A model generated the notes under the pieces. That model saw only the letters and a program-made list of their open reading frames with translations. It did no database searches and was not told where the DNA came from. The translations under genes and the position numbers were made by a program. A stretch of DNA of 64,000 nt from Chionis minor (Eukaryota > Chordata > Aves > Charadriiformes > Chionididae). Of the stretch, positions 13,577 through 63,807 are shown piece by piece; the stretch's first letter is position 1, and the number at the start of each line of letters is the position of its first letter. Location of the stretch: assembly GCA_013398295.1 (NCBI GenBank), contig VZSF01008857.1, positions 62,001 through 126,000 of the forward strand, read 5' to 3'.

Positions 13577-13678
13577 NNNNNNNNNNNNNNNNNNNNNNNN
13601 NNNNNNNNNNNNNNNNNNNNNNNNNNNNNNNNNNNNNNNNNNNNNNNNNNNNNNNNNNNNNNNNNNNNNNNNNNNNNN
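13577..13678. other. Assembly gap (102 N)
   Basis: Unknown bases inside the CpG island, just downstream of exon 1. Gap size may be nominal. Confidence 0.99.
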
Positions 13679-13968: not shown

Positions 13969-14013
13969 CAGGAGCCCCTCCGGGTGGGANNNCAGGAGCC
14001 CCTCCGGGTGGGA
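13969..14013. repeat. 21-bp duplication flanking NNN
   Basis: The same 21 bases (starting caggagcccc, ending gggtggga) occur at 13969-13989 and 13993-14013, separated only by NNN. This is most simply two contig ends that overlap and were joined without merging, not a biological tandem repeat. Confidence 0.8.
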
Positions 14014-20569: not shown

Positions 20570-22561
20570 GTGAGTGAGGCTACAATTTGATCTCTTGCAT
20601 CTTCAAGTATATGAGATGAGCATTAAGAATACTTGTACCAGTATCAACCTATGGTTTACTTACAGTGAAGGCTTTTTTTTTTTTGTAGTACTTTCTTTAA
20701 TGTGGACCCTATAGCAGTGGCATATAATTTGAATCCATCAACAGAGCAACATTTACCACCCATCGGTAAGTATAGACTAACACATACGTATTTAGGTAGT
20801 GTAATGGAAAAAAAAACCACCTCAAGTCTTCACCAAGACATCAATTGCTTTCTCATTCTGGATATAAGGCTGCCCTCTGGTGATGGAATGCAAGCATTTC
20901 AAGAAAATATTGCTACTGAAGTCCAACACCCCCCCCCCCCCCATTTTAAATAATACGATCAAGTTAAAAGAAATAAACAAAACCCCCTTTTCTTGTACTT
21001 AGAGGCCTCTGAGTTGCCATTACACTTCTGACAGAAAAGTCATTCAGTAAAACATCATTTGTTCTATTGTAGTCCTCTGCTGCGATCTTCGTAGCTGTAG
21101 CTCTGTAGCTTGGGGTCTCTTGAACTACATCATTTAAGTGGAGCACTGGCCTAAAACAATAAGGTAATCAGCTGCTCTCTTAACTAAATGCATAAATCCA
21201 CAACCAGAAAAGATCTATAATAGCTATGTTTTGTTACTGGAGTCATTAAGCAGACATTACTTATTGTTGTATTAGAAGGAATTAAATAGTTAAATATGCA
21301 GTGGCAAAGTCATGTGCTAGAGTGTTACTTAGAAAAGTGTTTCTGAGACTTTCTCACTTTTTTAGGGCACTCTTCCAACCATGTGTCCATGAATGACCAC
21401 AGCTTTGCTGAAAGTTGCAAAGTCCCATCTCAGAAATCAAGTCCACCTCCTGTAAGTCCCAAAAATGAACAGCCAATTTCAAGATACGAAGACCATCTTG
21501 TTCCTGGCTTCAGTAAACTGTCATTAACCATGGGCTGCGTTTCTGAAGAAACACCTCCTCATATGCCAATAAAAAATGGACCAATTCAATTTCTGTCTGC
21601 ATCTTCCAATGACCGTAGTTCCAGACCACTACCCCCTCTGCCTATTGCTGAAGATGTTACTCCAGATGAGGTTGACAAAGAGGTGGAATTCTTGACTAGC
21701 TCAGATACTGACTTTTTGTTAGAAGATTATGAACTTCCTCCTTTTAAATCCAGTGCTCCAAGCCGACGGAGCTTTAGGGGCTGTGGACAAATCAACTATG
21801 CATACTTTGATACTCCAACAGGACCAAAAACAGAAGATGCCAACCCTACACAAAGCCTAAATGGATACGTATCCAGTATTTATCCTCCTCCACAGCAGCT
21901 GCATCGACGTTTGCGAAGGTCCCATTCTGGGCCAGCTGGATCTCTTAATAAACCAGTAGTAAGACTATCTGGACACATAAACAGGTCTTCTCCAAACTCT
22001 GATGAAGATAAACCAGAGATTCCACCAAGGGTTCCTATACCTCCAAGGGCTCTCAAACCAGATTACAGAAGGTGGTCAGCAGAAGTTGCTTCTAGTGCAT
22101 ACAGTGATGAAGACAGGCCTCCGAAAGTTCCCCCAAGAGAACCTTTATCACGCAGCAATTCCCGTACACCGAGTCCCAAAAGCCTGCCATCATACCTCAA
22201 TGGGGTTATGCCCCCCACCCAGAGTTTTGCACCTGATCCTAAGTATGTCAGCAGCAAAGCTCTACAAAGACAATATAGTGAAGGATCTTCCAACAGGGTC
22301 CCTTGCATTCTTCCGATTATTGAAAATGGTAAGAAGGCCAGTTCAACTCACTACTATCTGCTGCCTGAAAGACCTCCATATTTGGACAAGTATGAGAAAT
22401 TCTTCAGAGAAGCAGAAGAAAGTAGCTCTAGCACAGACCTTCAGTCCTGGTCTAATGACTGTACAGCCACTTCAGCCCCAGCAAAACTGGACTCAAAAGC
22501 TAGAATGGACATAGCTGGTCATCTGAAACGAAAACACCTGTCTTATGTGGTTTCCCCGTAG
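20448..22561 (+). CDS. ERRFI1: ERRFI1 (MIG6/RALT), ERBB receptor feedback inhibitor 1
   Basis: Cytosolic adaptor that is induced by growth factors, then binds the EGFR/ERBB kinase domains, blocks their activation and promotes receptor endocytosis. The coding sequence joins 20448-20569, 20689-20765 and 21366-22561 (1395 bp, 464 residues; the human protein is 462). Visible along the protein: an N-terminal block VPLKTGFLH (the CRIB-like region in mammals); the SH3-ligand stretch RPLPPLPI at about 153-160; the 14-3-3-type site RRSHSGP near 250-256; and PPRVPIPPR near 286-294. The ERBB-binding segment starting [15 protein letters not shown] is at about 313, and its paired tyrosines ([11 protein letters not shown]) are at 396-397. 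The C-terminus is [11 protein letters not shown]. All introns have GT-AG ends and phases agree. The start ATG gives the conserved [10 protein letters not shown] opening. It is tail-to-tail with PARK7. Confidence 0.96.
20689..20765 (+). CDS. ERRFI1: ERRFI1 exon 3
   Basis: 77 bp between a T-rich acceptor (tttttgtag, ending 20688) and donor g|gtaagt. It encodes the conserved [12 protein letters not shown] block that follows the CRIB-like region. Confidence 0.92.
20929..20942. repeat. C14 homopolymer
   Basis: Fourteen cytosines in ERRFI1 intron 3, a likely sequencing and length-polymorphism hotspot. It is not part of an exon. Confidence 0.9.
21366..22561 (+). CDS. ERRFI1: ERRFI1 exon 4 (last coding exon)
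   Basis: The acceptor ctcactttttttag ends at 21365, and the frame runs open for 398 codons to TAG at 22559-22561. It holds all the proline-rich ligands, the 14-3-3-type site and the whole ERBB-binding region, as in mammals where this exon encodes most of the protein. Confidence 0.96.
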
Positions 22562-23925
22562 TCTCTGGGAGCATCGTCTCTACTTAGTTGTTCAGGATGG
22601 AGCTGAACTTTATCATGTTACAAAGTTCTTAAGGTTCTGAGATAATGAAGTAGGACCAGTTTGTCCTCCGAGAACTGGAAAGCGGATGGTAAAGTCCTCT
22701 TATGCTGCATATCTCTGATGTGTTTCTTAAGACTGTTTTTTGTCTTGGTATGTATAGCTGAAAACCTACAAAGATTCCATAGAAACATATGGAGGGATAG
22801 TAGTCACAGTTGGCCAGTTATATGCTACCTAGGTGAACGTGTTTGGTAGTCAGGTTATTAAAAAAAAATACCTAGCTTTGCTTACAAGTAACTTATAGAG
22901 CTGTCAACAGAGCAGATAATGCAGTACAGTGTTTGTATCAGGCATTTCCAAAACTTCTTTCACACAGTAACTCTGCCGAGAACATACTCTATCTTCTTTG
23001 ACTAGGATATGCCAACCTCGTAAGAAGGTAACTGTGAGATCTGATATCCACTTCAAGACTTGGCAAGCATATTGGAAGTGCATTTCGAAAGATAAATCTC
23101 TTTTAAAATATAATTTGACACTAATAGACTTTTAAAGTGAGTTAGGTTTTGTGGATTCTTTCAGTTGCTAGACACACTTGGCACAATTTTGCAGTTTTCC
23201 CTAGGAGAGACCTGGACAAGTTACTGCTAAGCTGCTGCTGCTCTTTTTGTTCTCGATCCTAGAAAAGTGTGAAAGTGTTCTGGAAGTGGCAAAGGATATG
23301 AGCGGCTATACAGTTGCTATTAAGTAGGCAGTAACAACTACATGCTCACCTAGAGTCTGAAATCCTGACTGTATTAAATACAGAAACACAGCACAAGCTG
23401 GTCTTGTGTGTTGGTGTTTCTATTCAGTATTTTAGGGGAGGAGGAGGGTATGAGGAAAAGAGATTATTCCATTTATGAACAGTGTCAGTCCCATCTCTCG
23501 CTGCTTCAGATGCTGCTTCTTGCTGTTTAATTTTTCCTCATTGTGCCTCAGCAATCCACTAAAGTTCATTGAGGTGCCCCATTTGTGACATGAGGTGCCA
23601 CATTAGCAGTTGTGATTACATTTATCCTCTTACAGATAAGCACAAGAGAAAGGGTGCTCCTAACGGAGGTACAGAAGGTGAATGTGTTCCTCCTAACAGA
23701 AATAAACAAGCTGTTTACAGTTTAAACTGCTGAATGAGATGTTTGAGCTATTTTAAAGCTTACTTTTTATTTGTTTTAGTACAAACTAAATGAAGGTGAA
23801 ATACATGCTATAGAAATGCACTGATATTTCTGCATCGTGTACAGTATTGAATAAAAAAGAATTCACTTTGTATTTTGAATATTGTCATGTCTTGAGTTTA
23901 ATAAAGTTATAAAATACTTATTTAT
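22562..23925 (+). other. ERRFI1: ERRFI1 3' UTR
   Basis: A T/A-rich tail of about 1.3-1.6 kb after the stop codon with no further open frame of note. It contains scattered ATTTA-like elements (for example around 23769 and 23919), which would suit the short-lived mRNA expected of an immediate-early gene. The end depends on which poly(A) signal is used. Confidence 0.6.
23850..23905 (+). terminator. ERRFI1: ERRFI1 poly(A) signals
   Basis: AATAAA at 23850-23855 and again at 23900-23905. Further copies at 24024-24029 and 24150-24155 could serve longer isoforms. Which one is used cannot be told from sequence. Confidence 0.55.
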
Positions 23926-24174
23926 GATACATTTTGGTTTTTGATTTATTGAATGGCGTATGCAATTGTGCATTTGAGTTCTGCATTTACTGGAAGGTTC
24001 AAAGTGAATAATGTTAAATGTGCAATAAATGTTGAATTCAGCTTGCATTTAAGGCTTCTGCAGAAGAGTTCAATAACTCACATTGCACACCATTAGCTTT
24101 AATTCCTTCTTACTACCTGGTAGCATGGTGTCTATAGTTTTGTGCTGACAATAAAACATCATGTAAGATTTAAG

Positions 24175-27100
24175 TTATTTGGCCTATCATTATTAATAAC
24201 CTTTGTTATTTCTAGACTCGCCCATACCATGCTAGGCACCATTGTACAGAAAAGGGCAGTAGTTTTCCTGTCTTCAATTTCTCACCTGTTAAAAAACAAC
24301 TAAATTGTACATTAAGGGTGACTGAAGAGGAGCCACTCATATTCTGAGGGTAAAAAAAATTTTGAGCATAGCATGGTAATTTTTTTTTCTTCTTAAGAGG
24401 AGAAAGAAATCACAGATACTCATCACAAAGCAAATATATTTAACTGTAGTATGTGAACCATGGATAAGTTTTTTGAAGATACAAAGCATCCCACAGGTTT
24501 GATCTTTTATCTGTGCATGCAGGTAAATACTTGTCTTCATCTGGCAGTCCTCGCATTTTCTGTGAATGAGTTTGTTTCAGAATAAAGCGGGTTACTATCC
24601 TTGGAATTATACTTGATGGAAAAAGCGTCAGATGTAGTTTTTCAGTAAAGCCTAATTACTTGGCTTTTATAGCTGGAGAGACTGCTAAGCTGCATTTAGG
24701 TGGTGCTTCAAAACCTATTGCTGTGCCATAACACTGCTAAGAACCCACACAGATTGGCCTCCAAAACATAAACAAGATATCTAATCCTGTGCAAGGCTGT
24801 TGACTATAGTGTTCATCCTACTGAAAGCTCTGCTTCCCATCCACCCCCTAGATTTTTCTAAGGTGGAAAAAGTCAAATTGGTACTTGCAAGCTTCCCCTT
24901 AAATCTGAGCAGCTTTAACCCTAGGACCCCAAAATAACACACCTTCTCAGGTACCTGACCTGTATGCCACACAGATTGCGGCAAACGCATCAATGCTGCT
25001 AAGCTGCAGCTCATTCCCTGTCGATTGTGAGACTTGGCGCGAACTCAGTAGTTATCATTTCAGTAGAACTCAGTCTAAAACCAAGCAACTGCTCTGCAAA
25101 TCTCTTCTAGCTTTTGCCTCTGGGTCACACTCCATTCCTGATACTTGGAACCCCCCTTTTAGCCTAGGTTCCTGTGCTTGAACAGACTGCTCTTTTCTCC
25201 TTACCTGGAGGCACTTGAAATCCCCAAGGCCTCAAGTCTCAGTTCTGCCCTTAATAGCATTTACTGTCAAATTAGTAGCAAAGCCACTCTTGGGTGGGAA
25301 AAAGAAAGCTTCCCCATCCAGATAATCCCACAATAAGCATCTCCCTGGCTTTCAGTGGGATTGTTTTGGCATAAAGCATTTGGGGAAAAGCCACATGGCC
25401 AGTGCACACACTGAGAAATGAACCTCTTGATAGGGAGGACAGCCCAGGCACTCTGTATTTCTGGATGTATGAGGCATTGCATTTGGATGAAGTGGAACTG
25501 TGAGTCAGAGCCATTGCACTTGCTGCCAGGTCTTGTTCACTGTTCTCTTTGTGAATACAGTGATGGGATAAACTTTCTGTCCTAACTCATTACACTTCAT
25601 GCCAGCCTGGTGTTACTGCTTAGTGTTTGCACAAGGCAAGCCAAAGAGACTTCTAAAGTGACTAACAGCTGAATATGTCTTTGATATAAAATGGGGTATT
25701 TGTTACAATTTCTCCAGCCACACACCCCAACACTTATTTTCACTTCTGCTAGCAGTGGAAGTTCCCTAGTCATTGGGCTAAAACCTTTTCTGCTACTGTA
25801 GCAGCAAGACTTATTTTTTTACTTCCTCAGAATAAGACCTACTTCTGAGTACAAACTATTTTCATACTTACAGTGCTGAAAAGTTCAAAAACCTTATAAA
25901 CTTGTACTTTTTAATGGTCTTCCATAACCCTTTCTGCAATTCAAAAAAAAAGTGTAAGACTTTTAACATAACCTCCATTATAGTTTTTCTCCTAGAAAAA
26001 TAAAATAATTGCATACTCCTTTCCTAAAAGTATTGCTATTGCCTACTCAGTCCTGAGTATTAAAAAAAAATAAATGAAAATTACTCTGTAGTGATGCTAT
26101 CTTTCCTACTGTGTGTCAGCTAAATAACAGCACAGTGTTAAGTCTCATTCCAGAAGTTAAATGGTGAACTTGTGTTTAGTGCAGCCATAACTGAAGGAAA
26201 ACAGACTGAAGCCGAATTGCAAATAGTGACTGGAACTGTTTGGGTAAGAGCAAGACATTCAAGTAGGTTACAGATCTCACATGTTTCTTCAGTATGAGGA
26301 AAATACTTTATAGGCAAGTCTTACAGTATTTAAGTAACTTGGCCATTTTCCCCTTTAAAAATCCAAAGTAATATGATTTCACTGAGGACTTGGTCCACAG
26401 TTCAGTGGTTTTCTCTGGATGACAANCCTCACTTGTATATTCTTAGACACAGATTCCTGTGCTTTGGGGGACAAAGTTTGCATGATCCAAAAATCGTATT
26501 CTGTTTTCCAAGGAGTAATTAAGGCTGTAGAGCTGTGGGGGAAGCTTTGCAGGTTCTGGCCAGAAGAGATTTCTCTGCTCATCCCCTGACACGTGGTAAG
26601 ACTTGTCAGGACACAACGTGCTTTTGCAACAGCCTGATCACATGTTTGAATATTTAGAGCTTGGGCTCACCTGGGCAAGGCCTGACAGCTTGCCTCCAAG
26701 GAGGAAGCCCCTTGCCAGATAGATTTGACTGGAATAATCACACTTCAAAGCAGTTATGATTTGATACACTGAAGTCTGAAGAGTCAAGGAATTTGTGTTA
26801 AAGCAGGGAAGAAGGATGTGAAACTAAGGAAAGGCAATGCTTTCCCACAACCTCCGGATTCAAGAAGTGGGCTACACATACTGTTTGCCCCCTCCCCCTG
26901 CTACCCCCCCTTCCCAGCAGTCTCTTTCGTGCCTCAGCAGCACAGTTGTGGTCACCCAGCCATGCCAGCAAGGACCCATGGGTCCCAGGAGGTAAGGGGT
27001 AAAGGGAGTTGTACCAAACAAACAGGAGGGCTGGATCCAGAGCAGCCCTATGCCGAACCCATGATCCTTGAGCAGACCTCAATGAGATGTGGCTAGTGGC

Positions 27101-30100
27101 AAAGTTGGTGAGAAGGGGGGGTGTGTGTGTGTGTCACCTCTCCCCGTGGCTCAAAACTGTCAATATCACAAGCAAAAGCACACTGGTAAGTAACCAGTGG
27201 CACCAAGAAGTACCTCTCATATCTACCTTGTGTAAGGGTCAGTGCTGCCTAGTGCTGCTCAGCTGCTCTGATGTTGTTGAAACACCCCTCACTTGATGAG
27301 TTTCAGACTAGCAAATCAACTCAGAGGAGCTGAGTCTAGCTGGTAGCTAAAGGGTACGATGTTTGCCCCAATATACCTTTTCCTGAAAGGAAGAGGCTGT
27401 GTTAGTACCTGGTGACTTGAAAAACCCATTAGCTTAACTTCCACCACATTAACTTGCTCTTAAACAGATAATGTCAGGAAATAATACACAGTTCTAGTGG
27501 GAGGTCATTTAAAAAAAAAAATCTTTCTATCGTCAGTTTCTCTTGCATCATAAGAGATAAAGCAAAACAGAAAATAAACCTGATTTGGAAGCATGCTGAT
27601 TGACAACATAATTAAGTTCTACAGTCATTTAAAATTACTGATCGTTGTTGTTGCTGTCATTATTTGTTTCCCATTCACTCCCAGACTGCAATAGGCACAA
27701 TTGCTGCTGTACTGAAACTGCAGAAGAGCTCTCACTGAGATTGCATTTCCTTCTGCTGCAGCCTTGGTTTTGTTTTTAAACAGTCTGTGTGAAGCGGCAG
27801 GTTTGACATGATAAAGGAAAGCATCCATCCAGTCCAGGACAAAGACACCAATTTTGCAAGGGCAGTTATTACAGTAGGGAGTAGTTGCTGATGGTGTTCA
27901 AACTGCGTCTTGTCAGGAATTCAGGCTTAAGATGATGACCAGATCAGTCACAGAATTCCCACCCTTCAAACTCATGATTACAGACTGCAGCCCTTATAAA
28001 CACTTTTAATAGTACTACAAGTTGTATGTTAAACACATACTCTCTAGATTACTGTCAAGAAGGAAATTTGAGATGGAGGTAACATGCATAATTTCACCTG
28101 CTTGTAGGGTCTCTGTAGTTAGGTAACCTATTGATTTTGTGTGTGTGTGTTGAGTGTTCCTGGGGTAAACTTGATTTTTTTTTTTTAAAGTAGCCTGATC
28201 TTTTCTTTTCTTGATAGCTTGCTTTCCAAAGCAGGTTATATTCATTTAAAACTGAAAACATACAGCAATTTTTCTGTTTCTCATAGCTCCTTGGCACTGA
28301 AAATCTAGCACACGAAGTTTAATTATACTTATTAATATTTGTTAAATAGCACTGCAGAGATTTCTGGCTGCTGAGCTTGTGATTAGCATTTGTAAGCTGA
28401 AAGAGGTGTTATCCCCACCCATCCTGCATTGTAATTCAGGCCTTGCATAATCCCCACCCAAATGCCTATTTTCATCCACACAGCTCATTATTTTTTCTGA
28501 ATCATATATGGAAGCCACACCCGTGATTGCTCATAGACTGTTGCTGTAATATTTATATATTGGTGTGCACCTTGATCCCAGTTGCGGTTAATTTTGGAAA
28601 AGGTGTTAGGTATTCCAGATTTCAAGTGGCATGCCACTGAAACATGGGAACCATTACTGCTATTCATTTCCTTACAAAGTGATTCAGAGGAAGAGATGCT
28701 TCTGAGTTTACAACCTGCAGCTTCTTGCTGAACATTAAAACTGTCACCCATAAATTGTTAGCATGTGAAAGCCTCAAAGGAAGAAGAGTGCAAATATACT
28801 GCCATGAAATAACAGAGAAAAAAACCACACCAGATTACCCCACCATCACCACCCTGAATCTGATCAAGGATGCTAACCACTGCACATAAAGCCATCGTGA
28901 TAAAATACTGAGGCCTTCCACGCACAAAGTCTTTGCATCAAGCATAGGATCATCAGGATTGACAAAGAAGAATGACCTCCTGCCCACCGCCTACCCAGGT
29001 GAGAGAGTGTCATGCTCCTGTTACCAAAATATTTACTTTACCTTTGTTAATATGTTTATTATGCTCACAACAACTATAAGGGCGGGGTCAGCACTAGCGA
29101 GTGCCCTTCTGAAGGCGACCAGAACATACAACCAGCCCTATACATTTTGCAGTCATTAGGTGTAATGCACTTAGCAGTCATTAGGCTGTTGGGGAGCTTA
29201 CCAGCTCCAGGGAAGTTCACACTAAGGACCACATCAGCTCATGCCGCAGAGTCCAGCTGTCACATGGCAAGGTGCAAGGGAGACACAAGCAACCAGCAAG
29301 TGGACCTTTGCAAGGTTACTCATTGCCTTGCAATCCTCGTGTTGTCATTTACTGGCTGTTAAGCAAGGTCCAGAGGAAACCCAAGGCTCCGACCATATTA
29401 GGTTGCACTTGGTGACTTCATATGTCATCTATCATGTTTACAAGTTATTCAAGAAAAGTTTTCCTGCATCCTGGTTGGATGCCTCTGCAGTTATAGCTTA
29501 AGGAATTTGAATTGTGATTGTGCTGTTATGATTCAGAATGCTCCAGCACAGTGATAGGCACATGGCAACGCAGAGGCCTTTAACAACTCAGAACAGAGAT
29601 GAGATTACAGCATGCACCTCAACACATTCTGTCATTTTTATTAAAATAGCCTAAACTTCTGTTCAGGAGGGCTGTCTTCTCACAGACTATCTTTTCACCA
29701 TGCTGAAAAAACCTAATGAACTGAAGTGATCACTTCATTAAAAGCCACATGGACAGACAGCCTTGTCCAAGACACACACATTTAAAAATGGATGGCAGCG
29801 AGGAGAGTGCCTGGGAGCTCCTGCCTTTTACAGAGGCTGATGGACAACTGGCATGGGGCTCTGAAGATGAAGGGCTAGCCTGAAGGAAGCATTAAATGTT
29901 TAGCTCCTAGCTTCAAATTAAATGGTTTAATGCTAAGTGTTTTGTTAAAGACTGACAGTCTAAACATACATGTTTTTATGGGTGAGGAGACCATGTGAGG
30001 CCATTTTCTTCTATAGGTTTTTAATCAGTCATACGATGCCCTGTGCTGGATGCAATACACAGTACCACTGTTCTGTGGGACTAGCCAAGGACCCCATCCT

Positions 30101-30540
30101 TCCTCAAGCAACCTTTCCACTGGAGGAGCCGACTACTCCTGCTGGGACAGGGACCACGGGCAGCAGTCCCACCCTGGCTTTAGGGGACACAACATGGCGC
30201 ACGGGAGTTAGCTTGAGACTGCTCAGCCTCTCAGGGTGGTAATAACTGAACAGGCCACTGCAGGGTGCTCTGGACACAGTGCCTCTCCCAGGCCACGCTT
30301 CTCCTGTCATCTAAGCTTAATCAGACCAACTTGGTCAAAAGCAGCCTCCACGATAAGACAGGATGCTATCGTGTGCCCTGGAGCAGCACAAGGAGTAAGG
30401 TGGCTGTTTTACGAGCAATCCAGTTTGCAATTTAATGCCCGGGCTTTACATCAGGCCATTCAGCCCCACACAAGGGAGCAGGCCGTGGGACACACGCGCA
30501 GACCCCTGGCTTTCTCAAGCAGTACGACAGGATGCAGCCA
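24175..30540. other. Intergenic between ERRFI1 and PARK7, left part
   Basis: No gene supported. It contains an isolated N at 26426, a C-rich run at about 26888-26918 that gives a G-quadruplex pattern on the minus strand, and short TG dinucleotide tracts at about 27119-27133 and 28137-28151. Open frames are short and have no family resemblance. Confidence 0.45.
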
Positions 30541-30559
30541 GGCTCGTTGGCTCGGAGAA

Positions 30560-30790
30560 CCCAGACAGGCTGTATGTGCCCCCCAAACGGGCTCTGCACA
30601 AAGTAACGCACAAGCGGCTGAGACCGTCCACCCGGAGCCAGAGCGGCCAAAGCCCGCGGCTCCTCCGCTAATCTGCGGACACCGCGGCCCGTAGGGAGGA
30701 CGGCAGAGACGGAGCTCACTGCGGCCCCGCCCCGCCCGCCCCGCGTCGCCGGCCCCGGGAACCGGAGGGTGGCCCGTACCGGGCTGCCAG
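30560..30790. promoter_or_regulatory. Orphan CpG island
   Basis: About 230 bases of CpG-dense DNA with GC-box sequence (ccccgccccgcccgccccgcg near 30724-30744), flanked by ordinary sequence. It lies 6.5 kb past the ERRFI1 3' end and over 6 kb from PARK7, so neither gene explains it. It may be the promoter of an unannotated transcript. Candidates around it are the minus-strand frame at 31657-32262 and the plus-strand TAS1R relic 3 kb away. Confidence 0.55.
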
Positions 30791-31656
30791 GGCACGTCAC
30801 CCTTGGGGCCTGGCAGCAACTCATTTGAAAGCTGATGGCAAAGCCTCTGTCTTTGTAAGCCCATACAGGATTCTAGAGCTGAATTATTCCTAGAGTTTCC
30901 TAGTACAAACATTCATTTCTCTTCTGCGCAACCAAAAGGAAGGGAAAGTACTCCTTTGCAGAACACAGTGGAAGAGCAACCAGTTAATAACACATCAAAG
31001 GTGGCAATGAGAGAAGTTAGCACAGATAACTGCATCCTCTGCTGCCAGTTCTCTTAAGAAACAGCAACTCCCCACCAAACAGCAGATTTCCATTTAAAAA
31101 CACAAATGTGACAGTGCTGTGCCCAACAGTGGTCAGGCTCATCACTGCTCAAGGCAGCTTGCTCCTACCTGCCAGTCACTATCTCGCCTAGCTGGTCACT
31201 TCAGTGTGAGAAGGCTTTTCCCAATTTATACACAAAATGATACAGGAGAAAGCAGTAGTCAGAGTAGAGGTGTGTGCCTGTGGAAATCAGCAATGCTTTC
31301 TCAGCAGAGCTCATTTTAACTTGGAAATGTTTTAATATACAAAAGTAGGCAGCTCCCGGAGTTGACAGTACTTAAGAGTGCAATGTGTGCAGTATAAAAA
31401 GTGGCTTTGAAACTACATAGGGACTAGTCTCCCAAAATAACTCATTGAAACTTAACAGCATAGAGAAATCAAACACCTCAATAGAAAATCTCGGTAGAAA
31501 CATGCCTCTTAAAAGAGTCCAGCAATTCAGAAATTCCTAAATTCTAGAAGCAAAAATCCATAAACAGCACCTTTAAGAACTAAAGTGCTTCCAACTAAAC
31601 TACAGAGCAGAAAGTAGAATCCTTGTTGCCAGGTTTAGAGCCAGCAAACAATGCTG

Positions 31657-32262
31657 TTACTGCCCAGCACCAAGCCCTGTATTCTTAAAGAGCAAACACA
31701 ACTGTACTGACTGGCAGGGAATAACAGCTGCAGCTTCTCCATCAAGATCAGACAAACAGAGCCAAAAGCAACCGCGAGGCCAGGCAGGGCAGTACAGCAC
31801 ACCAACGGGGGGCACAGCCCCACAGTACCTGGGCGAGGAGAGCCGAGTGGGGTCTGGGAAAACAACAGTGTCAGCCAGCAGTCCAGCAATGGACCATCCA
31901 GCAGCTCTGAAGCAGTGAGGCAAGTCCAAAGCCAGACTGAGAAGCCTCCTCAGCAAGTTAGGCTCATCAAAAGCTAGAGCTGACCCGAGCCTCAGCTTAT
32001 ATGGAGCTCCTGGCCTGTGGACGGGGGTGCTGAGAGGGCCCAGGTGAGGCTGGTCAGGTCCATGATGGGCTCTCAGCTCCCACAGCTGCCACTTAACCCT
32101 GGTAAAAAACTGTTTCCAAGCCGTTTGAAGGAATGATGGCCGCTGCTTAAGAACATTTTCACTTTTAGGGACCGGCAGCAAATTTAGGCTTATACTTTGG
32201 GTATCCTGAAGAAGAAAGCAGTCTGTCTCAAGCACGTGGGGCTGTAATGCACATGACCTCAA
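31657..32262 (-). other. Unexplained 201-codon open frame, possible LTR remnant
   Basis: An uninterrupted minus-strand frame of about 600 bp outside the CpG islands, beginning with an ATG at 32262. The product (leucine- and proline-rich, opening MRSCALQPHV) matches nothing I recognise. The same strand has a TATA-like ccatataag at about 32005-31997. The texture recalls an avian retroviral LTR, but I could not find matching termini or a target duplication. It could be chance. Confidence 0.25.
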
Positions 32263-33803
32263 AAGCTCTTATCAAAAACCTGAACACTGAATCAAGGGAT
32301 TCCTGGTCAGAATACAGGACACTGATGGACAGCTCTCAGTAGGGAACTTCACTGATGCTTTAGAACAGAATTATTTCTCTTTTCACTAAGTCTTGAACAG
32401 CAAATAGAAATGAAGAATTAAGAAAAATTCAATTTGCTATTAGTCTGGGAGGATTAACTCACAACATTACACTTAAATTTATACTCTGCTGAAAAATAAA
32501 GATATTTAAATATCTGGGGCTATAGTCGGAGTCAAACTACACAGTTAATAGCAGAAGAAATCCTCTGTTCAACACACAGCAGCTGAAGTTTTCATTGCAG
32601 AAACACCTGCAGAAAACACATCTGTTTGCATTCAGGGGATTCCTTTGATTCAGAACAGCAGCTTTACAAGATCACAAGGTACAGGGAGAATCCCAAAGGA
32701 AATTCTGCCATGACCATCAATGAGGAGAGGAGGGTTGTGGGCTTTAGAGTTATTACTGAACTGAGCACACACCTGAACTGTGGGCAAGTTCCGGCTGTGG
32801 CACAGTTGTTGCCCGTGTAAACTGTAGAAATAGTTACACCACCGATATTCAGAAATCAGAAAGATTTGCTTAGAAAATCATTATGTCCCTAGTCCTGATG
32901 GGAAACTTCAGGAGCTGAGGAAAACGTCAGTGTTAGCACTGTTACAGAAGTATTTCTAGACCTAAGTCTGCTCTTCAGAAAACAAGTGCTTGCATGAGAT
33001 CCTCAGACACCTTAACTTCTTCCTCCCTCTACCATTACTGGAATGGCCTTGAATTAAATTAAGGGCTACGTAGGGAGGAATTATTTAAGGTTATACAAAG
33101 GGTATAATTAGAAGCTGTTGAATGAAGTTAAGCAGAAGAGTAACAATCCAAAGTATAAAAGCTTGCCTCAGTCAGTGACACCTTTTAGCACACAGAACAG
33201 TTTTGTAGAAAGAATAAAGGCTCTAGAGCTGCTAAAGAGACGGAGTGCAATACAGCCCACTGCAATACCTAACTGCTGTGCCACCCAGTGGAGTCCTCAA
33301 CGCAGCCAGACAATGCAAAGGAATTACGTTACCTAAAAAATAGGATACTGAGTTTTACAAGTCTGAACCTATCGTCATGTATGTCAGCCCTGTTTGCCAA
33401 AGCGTGGCCAGAAAAAGACAAATCAATAATACTGCCTTCCCTTCCTTGGATGCTTCTCAAGAGATGGCAGGGAAGAGGCTGAAGGCCAGATAAATTGTTC
33501 CAGCAGGGGCAGCCTGTCCCTTTTTGCTGTCCTTCCCAGAAACCTTTTAACTTCCTGCCATGTGGCGATGCTGCAAGAACTACAGAAACTCCATGAAAGT
33601 TCAGAGCTGAGAACTGTTAGCAGAGGAAGTCATTCAGCGGAGAGATCAGAGCAGCAGGTAGACGTGTCTGTGCTGGGCCCTGCTTGGCTCTCATTTTACA
33701 TATTTTACTGCATTTCACACAGATGTACCACATGCAAGACCACATTCTAAACTTGCTAAACTATTATTTAAAATTTCAGGCAACAATTTATTAATTCACT
33801 TAG

Positions 33804-34690
33804 TGTTTTGTTGCTTATTTTTCAAACTTCAAACATTGCATCCCATGTCCTACTAAAATGTAGTCTCCATGTAACAGCAACGCATCCTTTTTTTTCTGGA
33901 GGTAGAGTATGTGAACGTGAATGATGGTATGGATGCAGTGCTTGTGGTTATTTCTGTGGTTGGCACCTTCCTACTTCTCTGTTACGTGCGTATCTTTCCA
34001 ACCAAGTCACGTGTCATCCAGGCTGCTGGAAGACAGCTGTCTCTTATCATTTTGGGATTGTTGCTTATATCTTGCATCACAATGCATCTTTCTGTTGAAA
34101 GAACAAACAAACCAATCTGATTAAGTACCCATTTTTTGCTATGACACTCACTGTGGGTTCCATGTCTTGCAGTTAGGTCATACCAAACAGTATGGCTAGC
34201 AAGCTGGCCAAGGCTTGTAATTACTGGATGAAGCATATTCTCTCGTGTACTTTTACAGCTATAAGTACTAGTGTGCAGGCTGGTTTGCATCCCTTATGGT
34301 TGTGTTTGTCTCCACCTATTTGAAAAGTAATGACTTTCTCTCTCTAGAAGATCCTTTTTCTGTTGCTCGGAGGGACATATTCTTGGGTTAGGATTTGTGT
34401 GTGCTTACAACACAGTGCTGTGCACTTGGGTTTCCCTGTTTGAAGAGAAACCTGCCAAAGAACTGCAGCAAAACCAGACTGCTCACTCTCCACATTCTTT
34501 GCTTCTGGTTCAGAGCTGCTTATTCATTTATAAGCTCCTTCATTCTAAAGGAAAATATTTTTCAGCATTGCAAGTATTCACTGATGGCACTAGCATGTAT
34601 GCCATCTTCTGTACATTCCTGTTCCTAAGTCATATAATACTTCTCAATTCAATAAAAGAGCTCACTCTCAATTATGCATTCAAGCCTACA
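33804..34690 (+). pseudogene. Broken TAS1R-family taste receptor (TAS1R2-like), last exon
   Basis: TAS1R proteins are class C GPCRs forming sweet and umami receptors. Their last exon carries the end of the cysteine-rich domain and all seven transmembrane helices. This stretch follows that order. CRD end: CFVAYFSN then CIPCPTKM*SPCNSNASF (33804-33890), where the invariant Trp codon reads TAG at 33861-33863. A frameshift falls at the T8 run 33888-33895. TM1-TM2 (33896-34117) has VEYVNVND, then RVIQAAGRQLSLIILG, ending in TGA. TM3: FFAMTLTVGSMSC, frameshift, LAVRSYQTV (34166-34192), frameshift, MASKLAKACNYWMKH (34192-34236), closest to TAS1R2. TM5-TM6: NLPKNCSKTRLLTL (34449 on). TM6-TM7: GKYFSALQV (34550 on). 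At least four frameshifts or stops make it non-functional. Earlier exons were not found convincingly. Family call is fairly firm; subtype is tentative. Confidence 0.75.
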
Positions 34691-34699
34691 CCACAACCA

Positions 34700-36610
34700 G
34701 ACTCAAGAGAAAACCCCCACACTGTTCTTGAGAGATGATACCAGGCATACAGCAGATGCTGTGACTACCTTCTCAGCAGGAAAACAATCAATCCCCCAAA
34801 CCCTCCCACTACCAGGGAACAAAGCTAGACAAGAGTGGATGCATTCTCTTTGTCTGAAGCCAAGTTCTGTGACAGCTAATAGCCAATTACCATAGGCTGT
34901 AAAACTAAAGTGTGCCAATAACAAAAGGGCACAAAGTTTCTATCATTCATGAAACACTCAGCAGAAAAGTACCTCATCTCAACTTTCGGCAGCACATAAA
35001 GGGGATTTTAGGAAAAGAGGTATGTAACAGCTAGGGAGCCTCCATATGAAATAGATAAGGAGAGAGGAAAAAGCCATTCCACAAACTGGCTTTTTTTCCC
35101 CGCCTCAAACCAGCAAATTGCTTCTCAGCACTTCACCTAAGAGGAAAAGTAGCATAATCTTAGTCGATACACCTCTCCTAACTTAAAGACTGAGTTAATG
35201 ACACCTTGGCAGAGAATCCATGTAAATTCAGATTTGCTAGACATCTGCAATATAAAAGGTTGAGAACAGGGTCAGTTTTATGAAGGAAACTGTGATGCTC
35301 GCAGCATTACCACATTTCATTAACCAAGTCCTTTTTGCTGCATGTGATGAAACAATCTGGAAGTTAACCATACACAATGGACTCTAAGATCATTTTACTG
35401 AGTGCTTTTCCTATTACTACTTTAAAAGGAGTGTAAAAGCCCAAATGTACAGACTGAAAACCTCATTTTCTGTGAAGTGAACTCTCTCAGCCTTAGAATA
35501 AAAAATAAAAATGTATAAACAAATTTCGGGCCACTTCATTAGTGCTTGGTATTAAAAGATTTCTGGAAGCCTTAACAATACAAGCATGGAAATATTTTCC
35601 TTCTAATGCTATAAAGCAGTACTACAGCCCAGGAATGCAGAGTTTTTCCTGTATTCTGAATCATGCCCATTTACAAACCAAGTGATTATTCCAGATCCTA
35701 GGACAAAGAATCTTTCCATCATTTGGTTTACATTTGCATGGCACTACCAGTTAGACGTGCAGATTTAATGAACAAACATGTCCAGTCTTACATAGATTAC
35801 AACTTTTTGCATATCTTGAGCATATTTCAAAGCTAGAGAAACAAATGGAAGATTTCCTAACCAAATTAGCGGCAGAGCATATAGCTAAAGCAGTTCTTCC
35901 AGTAGACACCAACAATGTTGAGACATTTCTTAATTCTAAATTTGCAAAGTACCTATGTATTTCATTACCAAAACGTAGTAATTGAGAATGAACTCGTTTC
36001 CTATTAAAATAGGCAAGTATAAAGGCACCTATGCAGTCATTTTCTAAAGTTCAGACTGTACACTTCAGATGTATGCAGAACCAGGTCTCCAGGTACTGTG
36101 GTAACTTCAGAATCCAGTGAAGTGCCACCTTCTAAGTGTGATTGCTGACAGAGCCACACAACAGCAGTTACTTAGTAAAATAAAGGTAACAAAGACAAAA
36201 ATTGATCCCAAATTCTTAATTCTCACAGGGATGCAGCTTCACTACTTCCTCCAGAGACCTGTCCAGCAACTCCTATAAACTGACATATGGTCACTTAAGC
36301 CAGGCTTGTAGAAAGTTCCGATTTATAGTAAGCAGAAACAAGCACCGCTCCTGGTGGTAAGCTACCGAGTCCAAACTTTCTGCTTTATGCTGATGATTAG
36401 CTGCCTAAATAGCTCAATGGATCTGCAGTCATTTAATGCACAAGACAAATTCTAACAGTATATAGGAACTCCAGGGTGCCTGACAAGGTTAAGATATTCC
36501 TGCTTTTAATTTAGTTTGATACTGTCTCAGAATTAATACTAGTTATTTGCCTTATTTGAACACAGGAAACTAAATGCTATTTTCACAAGTTCTAAGTTAC
36601 AACTTAATCT
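34700..36610. other. Intergenic between TAS1R relic and PARK7
   Basis: No exon or element recognised. AT-moderate sequence with only short open frames. Confidence 0.45.
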
Positions 36611-37235: not shown

Positions 37236-43001
<5,766 letters not shown>

Positions 43002-45874: not shown

Positions 45875-46013
45875 NNNCCCCCCGCCCCGCCTCAGGCGGC
45901 CCGGCCCGGTTACGGCCGCGCGGCGGGGATCGGTACCTGCCCGGGCGCTTCAGGCACGGCATCTCCGCCCGCGGCGCAGCTGTCCGCAGACATGTCGATG
46001 CCGCCCACCCCCN
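45875..46013. other. Assembly gaps near TNFRSF9 5' end
   Basis: NNN at 45875-45877 and a single N at 46013 lie where the signal-peptide exon of TNFRSF9 is expected, so the 5' end of that gene may be misassembled. Confidence 0.9.
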
Positions 46014-62950: not shown

Positions 62951-63807
62951 CCCATTCCACCCTTGAAGCTATTCAAACTTGACTGGACACACTCCTGGAC
63001 AAGGGAGTCACTCCCGTGACCTGCTGGAAAGCAGCTCTGCAGAGAGGGACCTGGGAGTCCTGGTGGACAAGTTGACCATGAGTCAGCAACGTGCCCTTGT
63101 GGCCAAGAAGGCCAATGGCATCCTGGGGTGCATCAAGAGGAGTGTGGCCAGCAGGTGGAGGGAGGTCATCCTCCCCCTTTACTCTGCCCTGGTGTGGCCG
63201 TATCTGGAGCACTGTGTCCAGTGCTGGGCTCCCCAGTTTAAGAAAGACAGGGAACTGCTGGAGAGGATGCAGTGAAGGGCTACAAAGATGATTAGGGGGC
63301 TGGAGCATCTTTCTTACGAGGAAAGGCTGAGGGAGTTGGGTCTCTTTAGTCTAGAGAAGAGAAGGCTGAGGGGGGATCTCATCAATGTTTACCAATACTT
63401 AAAGGGAGGGTGCCAGGAAGAGGGGGCCAGTCTTTTTTCAGCAGTACCCAGTGATAGGACAAGGGGCAATGGGTATAAACTCAAATACAGGAAGTTCCAT
63501 CTCAACATGAGGAGGACCTTCTTTACTTTGAGGGTGGCACAGCACTGGAACAGGCTGCCCAGAGAGGTGGTGGAGTCTCCAACTCTGCAGACATTCCCAG
63601 CCCATCTGGACGCCATCCTATGCCACCTGCTGTAGGTGGACCTGCTCTGGTAGTGGGGTTGGACCAGATGATCTCTAGAAGTCCCTTCCAACCCTTAACA
63701 TTCTGTGATTCTGTGACAAACTGCTCTGGCTGACCCTGCTTTGAGCAGGGGGATTTAGACTAGATGATTTCCAGAGGTGCCTTCTGACCTCAAACATTCT
63801 GTGATTC
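62951..63807 (+). mobile_element. Older CR1 tail, split by a younger CR1
   Basis: The left part (62951-63002) reads ccttgaagctattcaaactt and gactggacacactcctggac. The right part (63717-63807) resumes with actgctctggctgaccctgc, agcagggggatttagactag and caaacattctgtgattc. Joined across the insertion, these follow the normal order of a CR1 3' end. Confidence 0.75.
63003..63716 (+). mobile_element. Younger CR1 LINE, 5'-truncated
   Basis: About 710 bp of CR1: the C-terminal part of the reverse-transcriptase frame followed by the 3' UTR and the terminal repeat attctgtgattctgtga (63700-63716). The translated frame shows the family phrases [51 protein letters not shown] and [21 protein letters not shown] single in-frame TGA at 63273-63275 breaks it, most likely from a CGA arginine codon by CpG decay. 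The copy is 5'-truncated and cannot move itself. It is the best-preserved CR1 in the window. Confidence 0.93.

Follow-up and report, generated by a model that had tools for sequence, protein, structure and literature searches.

Here we describe the remains of a TAS1R taste receptor gene (class C GPCR) in a window of 64,000 nucleotides (the whole stretch of DNA analysed, C3076:62001-126000 of a 1.15 Gb assembly). A plus-strand segment at 33804-34701 is genuinely the last exon of a TAS1R gene that died long ago; it spans the terminal part of the cysteine-rich domain (CRD) through the C-terminal tail and lacks a readable frame. It probably derives from a lineage deeper than amniote TAS1R2 or TAS1R1, and may mark an old receptor site beside ERRFI1.

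Homology to TAS1R is collinear on the plus strand and spread over all three frames, passing from the CRD end through TM1-TM7 to a CIQxYT tail. With a custom-written local aligner that tolerates frameshifts and stops, a 47-row TAS1R profile reaches 326 half-bits at 33804-34701, while the rest of the window gives at best 59 on the plus strand (outside 33.0-35.5 kb) and 72 on the minus strand, and 400 dinucleotide shuffles of 33601-34900 give a mean of 47 and a maximum of 77. This difference, together with the frame changes and stops, identifies the segment as a dead TAS1R exon. The frame-aware alignment that the original prediction had suggested as a check thus upholds its reading of a dead TAS1R, and the phrases it quoted are all found on the plus strand in the order it gave. 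The predicted start is retained, but the end moves from 34690 to 34701, because the tail PKSY...CIQAYTTTR sits in another frame. The parts of the relic and the flanking genes are listed in Table 1.

Table 1. Coordinates in the window of the TAS1R relic, its parts and the neighbouring coding exons
Feature	Position	Strand	Basis
ERRFI1 coding exon	21347..22561	+	PF11555 Inhibitor_Mig-6, E 4.4e-9
TAS1R last-exon (exon 6) pseudogene, whole	33804..34701	+	Profile alignment, shuffles
T-rich tract, start of exon-6 homology	33804..33823	+	Read from sequence
CRD end, CIPCPTKM*SPCNSNA	33804..33884	+	Strict reading, aligned rows
TM1-TM2 block	33887..34108	+	Strict reading; Pfam 7tm_3, E 5.7e-5
TM3 blocks, two frames, KYPFFAMTLTV / VPCLAVRSYQ, RS(F/Y)Q motif	34111..34186	+	Aligned rows, strict reading
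Intracellular loop 2 MASKLAKACNYWMKH, TM4, part of extracellular loop 2	34189..34362	+	Strict reading
TM5-TM6 blocks, two frames, CSEGHILGLGFVCAYNTVLC / LKRNLPKNCSKTRLLTL	34364..34511	+	Strict reading
Extracellular loop 3 GKY, TM7, C-terminal tail CIQAYTTTR, two frames	34514..34701	+	Strict reading
PARK7 coding exons, converging on the relic	37239..43001	-	tblastn, human DJ-1 as query, six matches

The strict reading (frameshift cost 15) divides the relic into nine blocks with 8 frame changes and 3 stops, and at this strictest setting no open reading frame is present, making it a pseudogene. The number of frame changes depends on the frameshift cost (34 at 7, 17 at 10, 10 at 12 and 8 at 15); cost 15 provides the strict count, and cost 12, at which part of the block LPKNCSKTRLLTL falls into a gap, was used for trees. 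One stop (33861-33863), in the CRD end, occupies the position of a Trp in most TAS1R rows, and in-frame stops at 34321 and 34345 lie within the block spanning loop 2, TM4 and extracellular loop 2. In TM3, the RSFQ motif, invariant in 11/11 TAS1R rows of one alignment, appears as LAVRSYQ (F to Y), and the relic tail CIQAYT aligns to IQxYT of TAS1R rows. The T-rich tract at the start of the homology is possibly what remains of the splice acceptor region, with the closest AG directly 5' of it (33802-33803).

Comparison with single proteins used a panel of 280 listed by three protein searches (including the best 120 of 241 and the best 120 of 713), which score 39 to 252 against 33601-34900. Twelve of these, aligned to both strands of the whole window, score 101 to 203 in the relic region and no more than 78 elsewhere. 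Human T1R3, mGluR2 and T1R1 sequences score 47, 77 and 150 on the relic, respectively. In a Pfam search, the TM1-2 stretch alone matches 7tm_3 in register (23.3 bits, under the curated cut-off of 33.5; residues 7-63 of the 73-aa piece against profile positions 3-61), and none of four other relic pieces matches this family.

Scores alone are insufficient for assignment to TAS1R, since CaSR and GPRC6A rows score 132-187 on the relic (up to 187 and 168, respectively), and the raw score of one CaSR row (187.2) is on a par with that of the sauropsid T1R1 profile (186.8). Some relic residues resemble CaSR or GPRC6A, and a PDB search with the TM1-2 piece returned 15 sequences, all of them mGluRs with E 0.34 or worse and none a TAS1R. 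An origin from another class C receptor (CaSR, GPRC6A or V2R type) is nevertheless highly improbable in light of the placement tree (55 rows, 107 placements compared). Attachment to the CaSR branch is 26.3 lnL worse (AU 0.0036) and to the GPRC6A branch 28.7 lnL worse (AU 6e-6), and both are rejected in AU tests with 2000 resamplings, a number that the program itself deems too few for reliability. The deep TAS1R stems are within a few lnL units of one another, and a position outside all TAS1R rows (6.7 lnL, AU 0.115) is not rejected. Both VRS(F/Y)Q and the tail motif IQxYT, which the relic shares with the TAS1R rows, are TAS1R traits. Another comparison took 18 columns in which CaSR and GPRC6A lack the state found in most TAS1R1, TAS1R2, shark and fish rows and bird T1R3 differs from it. 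There the relic (read at frameshift cost 12) shows the majority state six times, including the R and Q of VRSFQ, the T1R3 state four times and neither eight times. The rejected CaSR and GPRC6A branches and the TAS1R motifs led us to discard non-TAS1R class C receptors as candidates, with V2R represented by a single sequence, which grouped with CaSR.

The position between ERRFI1 and PARK7 is borne out by the Mig-6 domain match and the DJ-1 matches, the first PARK7 exon also matching DJ-1 chains of the PDB (E 9.4e-13). The relic lies between the 3' ends of the two genes, 2.5 kb past the last matched PARK7 codon. TAS1R2 is located between ALDH4A1 and PAX7 and TAS1R1 at NOL9-ZBTB48 (PMC6110252), and TAS1R3A neighbours DVL1 and CPTP; the relic has none of these neighbours, in agreement with the original prediction that the site is not the mammalian TAS1R2 neighbourhood. 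In manakin, a T1R1-matching protein (P0227) carries the name telomere zinc finger-associated protein, suggesting one gene model that merges TAS1R1 and ZBTB48, and supporting that neighbourhood in birds.

The relic had been considered most like TAS1R2, and perhaps a fossil of the lost bird sweet receptor; the first claim fails and the second is unsupported. The best TAS1R2 row scores 184, compared with 190-252 for 2 turtle T1R1, 10 amphibian T1R1 and 10 cartilaginous-fish rows, a comparison that is not decisive alone because 184 also exceeds the scores of most bird and mammal T1R1 rows. Placing the relic inside amniote TAS1R2 costs at least 39.6 lnL (AU 0.009 or less, 2000 resamplings), and the grouping of the relic with turtle T1R2 has p 0.0004 (mixture model, 10000 resamplings). 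On these values we rejected amniote TAS1R2 as a candidate, and with it the place beside turtle TAS1R2, where a bird TAS1R2 would be expected. This rejection is not caused by decay alone in six control runs, in which simulated decay of turtle T1R2 gave +18 to -5 lnL for the stem and +46 to -6 lnL for the tip relative to the best of nine deep stems, compared with -40.9 for the relic; in this control the ancestor's own row was kept in the tree, each setting had two runs, and the deep stems were chosen after the placement results.

That the relic is the lost bird TAS1R2 (sweet subunit) after relocation is thus very unlikely. PMC10869828 does record the loss of TAS1R2 in birds, the exon layout is the same, the loop MASxL...WMKH resembles gecko TAS1R2 (P0021), and the test does not reject a stem attachment to T1R2 as a whole (p 0.13). 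Against these stand the rejected placements, the different neighbours, the turtle T1R1 scores of 233 and 252, and GKY of extracellular loop 3, which is missing from the two TAS1R2 rows shown. At 8 columns diagnostic for T1R2 versus T1R1, the relic is split 3:3, with 2 matching neither.

TAS1R1 of turtles, amphibians and birds also shares the exon layout, together with GKY in loop 3, and gives the best score among the 280 panel proteins (turtle T1R1 P0268, 252). Groupings with turtle and bird T1R1 (p 0.066) and with all T1R1 (p 0.15) are not rejected, and the TAS1R1 last exon was not found in the assembly with two T1R1 queries. These observations are compatible with the relic being a TAS1R1 copy, or TAS1R1 itself, in this lineage, but the pattern of identities makes this unlikely, as do the NOL9-ZBTB48 home of T1R1 and the zinc finger name carried by the manakin T1R1 model. 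The relic shares 31% identity with each of turtle T1R1, amphibian T1R1 and the fish T1R2-like rows; shark rows (30%), palaeognath T1R1 (29%), mammal T1R1 (28%), turtle T1R2 (26%) and GPRC6A (24%) follow, and bird T1R3 (20%) is the lowest of ten groups. In simulated decay with indels (run at 0.32, 24 runs each, and read by the same alignment program as the relic), own-family identity is 46.6 +- 2.9% for turtle T1R1, 43.0 +- 3.1% for turtle T1R2 and 53% for emu T1R1 (this last simulation being less decayed than the relic by score, 308 versus 256), whereas the relic has 31%, 26% and 28% to the same families, respectively. The near-even identity across TAS1R branches is not reproduced by decay of turtle T1R1 or T1R2, which speaks against the amniote sweet and umami subunits. 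In addition, decayed turtle T1R1 favours its own stem by +15 to +109 lnL in 6 runs, compared with -17.4 for the relic. The poor fit to TAS1R1 is therefore supported, though not settled.

We infer instead a deep TAS1R lineage. In the tree of the recovered residues, another check proposed with the original prediction, the best place of the relic is at the base of TAS1R2 plus TAS1R1 (support 84) or of fish T1R2-like plus TAS1R1 rows (80), both weak values. The relic branch is very long (1.78 changes per column), and long branches drift toward deep positions. Simulations of a deep lineage, with shark and fish rows as proxies, scored 145, 152 and 208, compared with 232, 232 and 236 for the relic. 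The alternative first suggested, a different TAS1R subfamily that birds and mammals have lost, becomes the better of the two ancestries proposed with the rejection of amniote TAS1R2. Candidates are TAS1R7, TAS1R5, TAS1R4, TAS1R3B, or a stem relative of TAS1R1 or TAS1R2; no TAS1R4, TAS1R5, TAS1R7 or fish TAS1R3 was recognised among the panel matches listed (280).

TAS1R7 fits by description rather than by sequence: it falls outside the T1R3+T1R4 cluster of TAS1Rs, it arose early, and its presence in lizards implies that reptile ancestors had it; however, it is reported only from axolotl and lizards, and the novel TAS1Rs of anole lie side by side (Nishihara et al. 2023, PMC10781636). TAS1R6 of cartilaginous fishes scores high on the relic (202-245 for 10 rows, the T1R6 label being our own) but is reported only from those animals (PMC10781636).

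The position of the relic points first to TAS1R3B. In fish, ERRFI1 is "always next to" T1R3, with PAX7a often downstream, according to PMC5931979, and in axolotl and bichir TAS1R2A is adjacent to TAS1R3B (PMC10781636). The relic adjoins ERRFI1 as fish TAS1R3B does, a likeness of position only, with 22561 to 33804 in between. By analogy, the ERRFI1 side may be an old TAS1R site, the relic being one of its members. The relic could then be TAS1R3B, the T1R3 paralogue kept by fish and thought lost in the amniote ancestor (named in PMC10781636); grouping with T1R3 is not rejected (p 0.25), and IQAAG of the relic resembles VQASG of bird T1R3. The sequence nevertheless makes a receptor of the T1R1/2/5/6/7/8 side likelier, leaving TAS1R3B a rather doubtful identity. 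As judged against bird and human T1R3, T1R3 is the least similar of the groups, and the relic has VRSYQ where bird T1R3 has IKSLE. At 40 columns where bird T1R3 departs from the common TAS1R state, the relic has the common state in 20, the T1R3 state in 6 and neither in 14. TAS1R3A was set aside as a candidate, as its neighbours differ and a T1R3 with open exons is present elsewhere in the assembly (C214:573377-577605). We found no report of a TAS1R relic between ERRFI1 and PARK7 among the titles and abstract openings examined in open-access PMC, and the text of PMC10781636, figures aside, mentions neither gene.

For the deep-lineage origin, we regard it as about an even call that the relic preserves an ancient TAS1R lineage (TAS1R7-, 5-, 4- or 3B-type) as a genomic fossil at its ancestral site beside ERRFI1, and that the bird lineage retained one more T1R, in addition to TAS1R1, 2 and 3, well past the supposed loss of that receptor in the amniote ancestor or outside lizards. 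TAS1R subunits pair with a T1R3/T1R4-type partner and sense amino acids or sugars. As a member of this family, the intact gene would have specified the seven-helix part of such a subunit, and the receptor would have sensed ligands of these kinds. The gene has since died, its other exons presumably lost by decay or deletion, and the relic most likely now does nothing, as its broken frame permits no product and no sign of a new function was observed. When decay was simulated by substitutions alone, the shark and fish proxies reached a target identity of 34% (relic, 31%) after 0.14-0.18 substitutions per site. At about 2 substitutions per site per billion years in birds, this gives a decay age of the order of 100 million years, which is a guess.

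The T1R repertoire of bird ancestors and the timing of its losses have been deduced mostly from absence, and a placed relic is a physical trace of one such absence, open to comparison between birds, crocodilians and turtles. If the relic is not TAS1R2, reptile ancestors would have had more than the three usual T1R receptors, and the ERRFI1 neighbourhood would be a place to look for others.

The last exon is the longest and best conserved TAS1R exon, and here it is an orphan: no Venus flytrap domain exons were found in the window or in the flanks searched. Searches of the window for ligand-domain exons gave at best 65 with ten single proteins (inside a TNFRSF9-like cysteine-rich region at 46.2 kb) and no more than 55 with profile parts of the ligand-binding domain (46 or less 5' of the relic), and the flanks C3076:2001-62000 and 126001-158627 gave at best 63.5. 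The other exons have presumably decayed past recognition or been deleted. Genome-wide, class C 7TM matches occur at no fewer than 16 places, without a V2R expansion. Together with the assembly size and the CR1-like frames described below, this suggests a bird genome. Ten of the 16 are CaSR, GPRC6A, one T1R3 (the gene on C214) and seven mGluR-type loci, while two match the panel weakly and four do not. Suboscine T1R1 (P0072), kiwi T1R1 (P0231) and turtle T1R2 (P0106) have last-exon matches only at those ten places, with 31% identity or less, so that neither a TAS1R1 nor a TAS1R2 last exon was found in the assembly with these three queries; for TAS1R1, gene loss and an assembly gap are both possible explanations. 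The genome searches did not return the relic itself, as its broken frame would lead one to expect.

Beyond PARK7, TNFRSF9-like frames are visible by eye at about 46.1-47.9 kb on the plus strand, one of them matching the TNFR cysteine-rich family at E 0.0039, which falls short of the curated cut-off; a place beside PARK7 is what the mammalian gene order predicts for TNFRSF9. CR1-like reverse-transcriptase frames, likewise seen by eye, lie at 62967-63635 on the plus strand, their two ORFs being without a Pfam match. The window also contains runs of N at 13577-13678 (102), 13990-13992 (3), 26426 (1), 45875-45877 (3) and 46013 (1 base).
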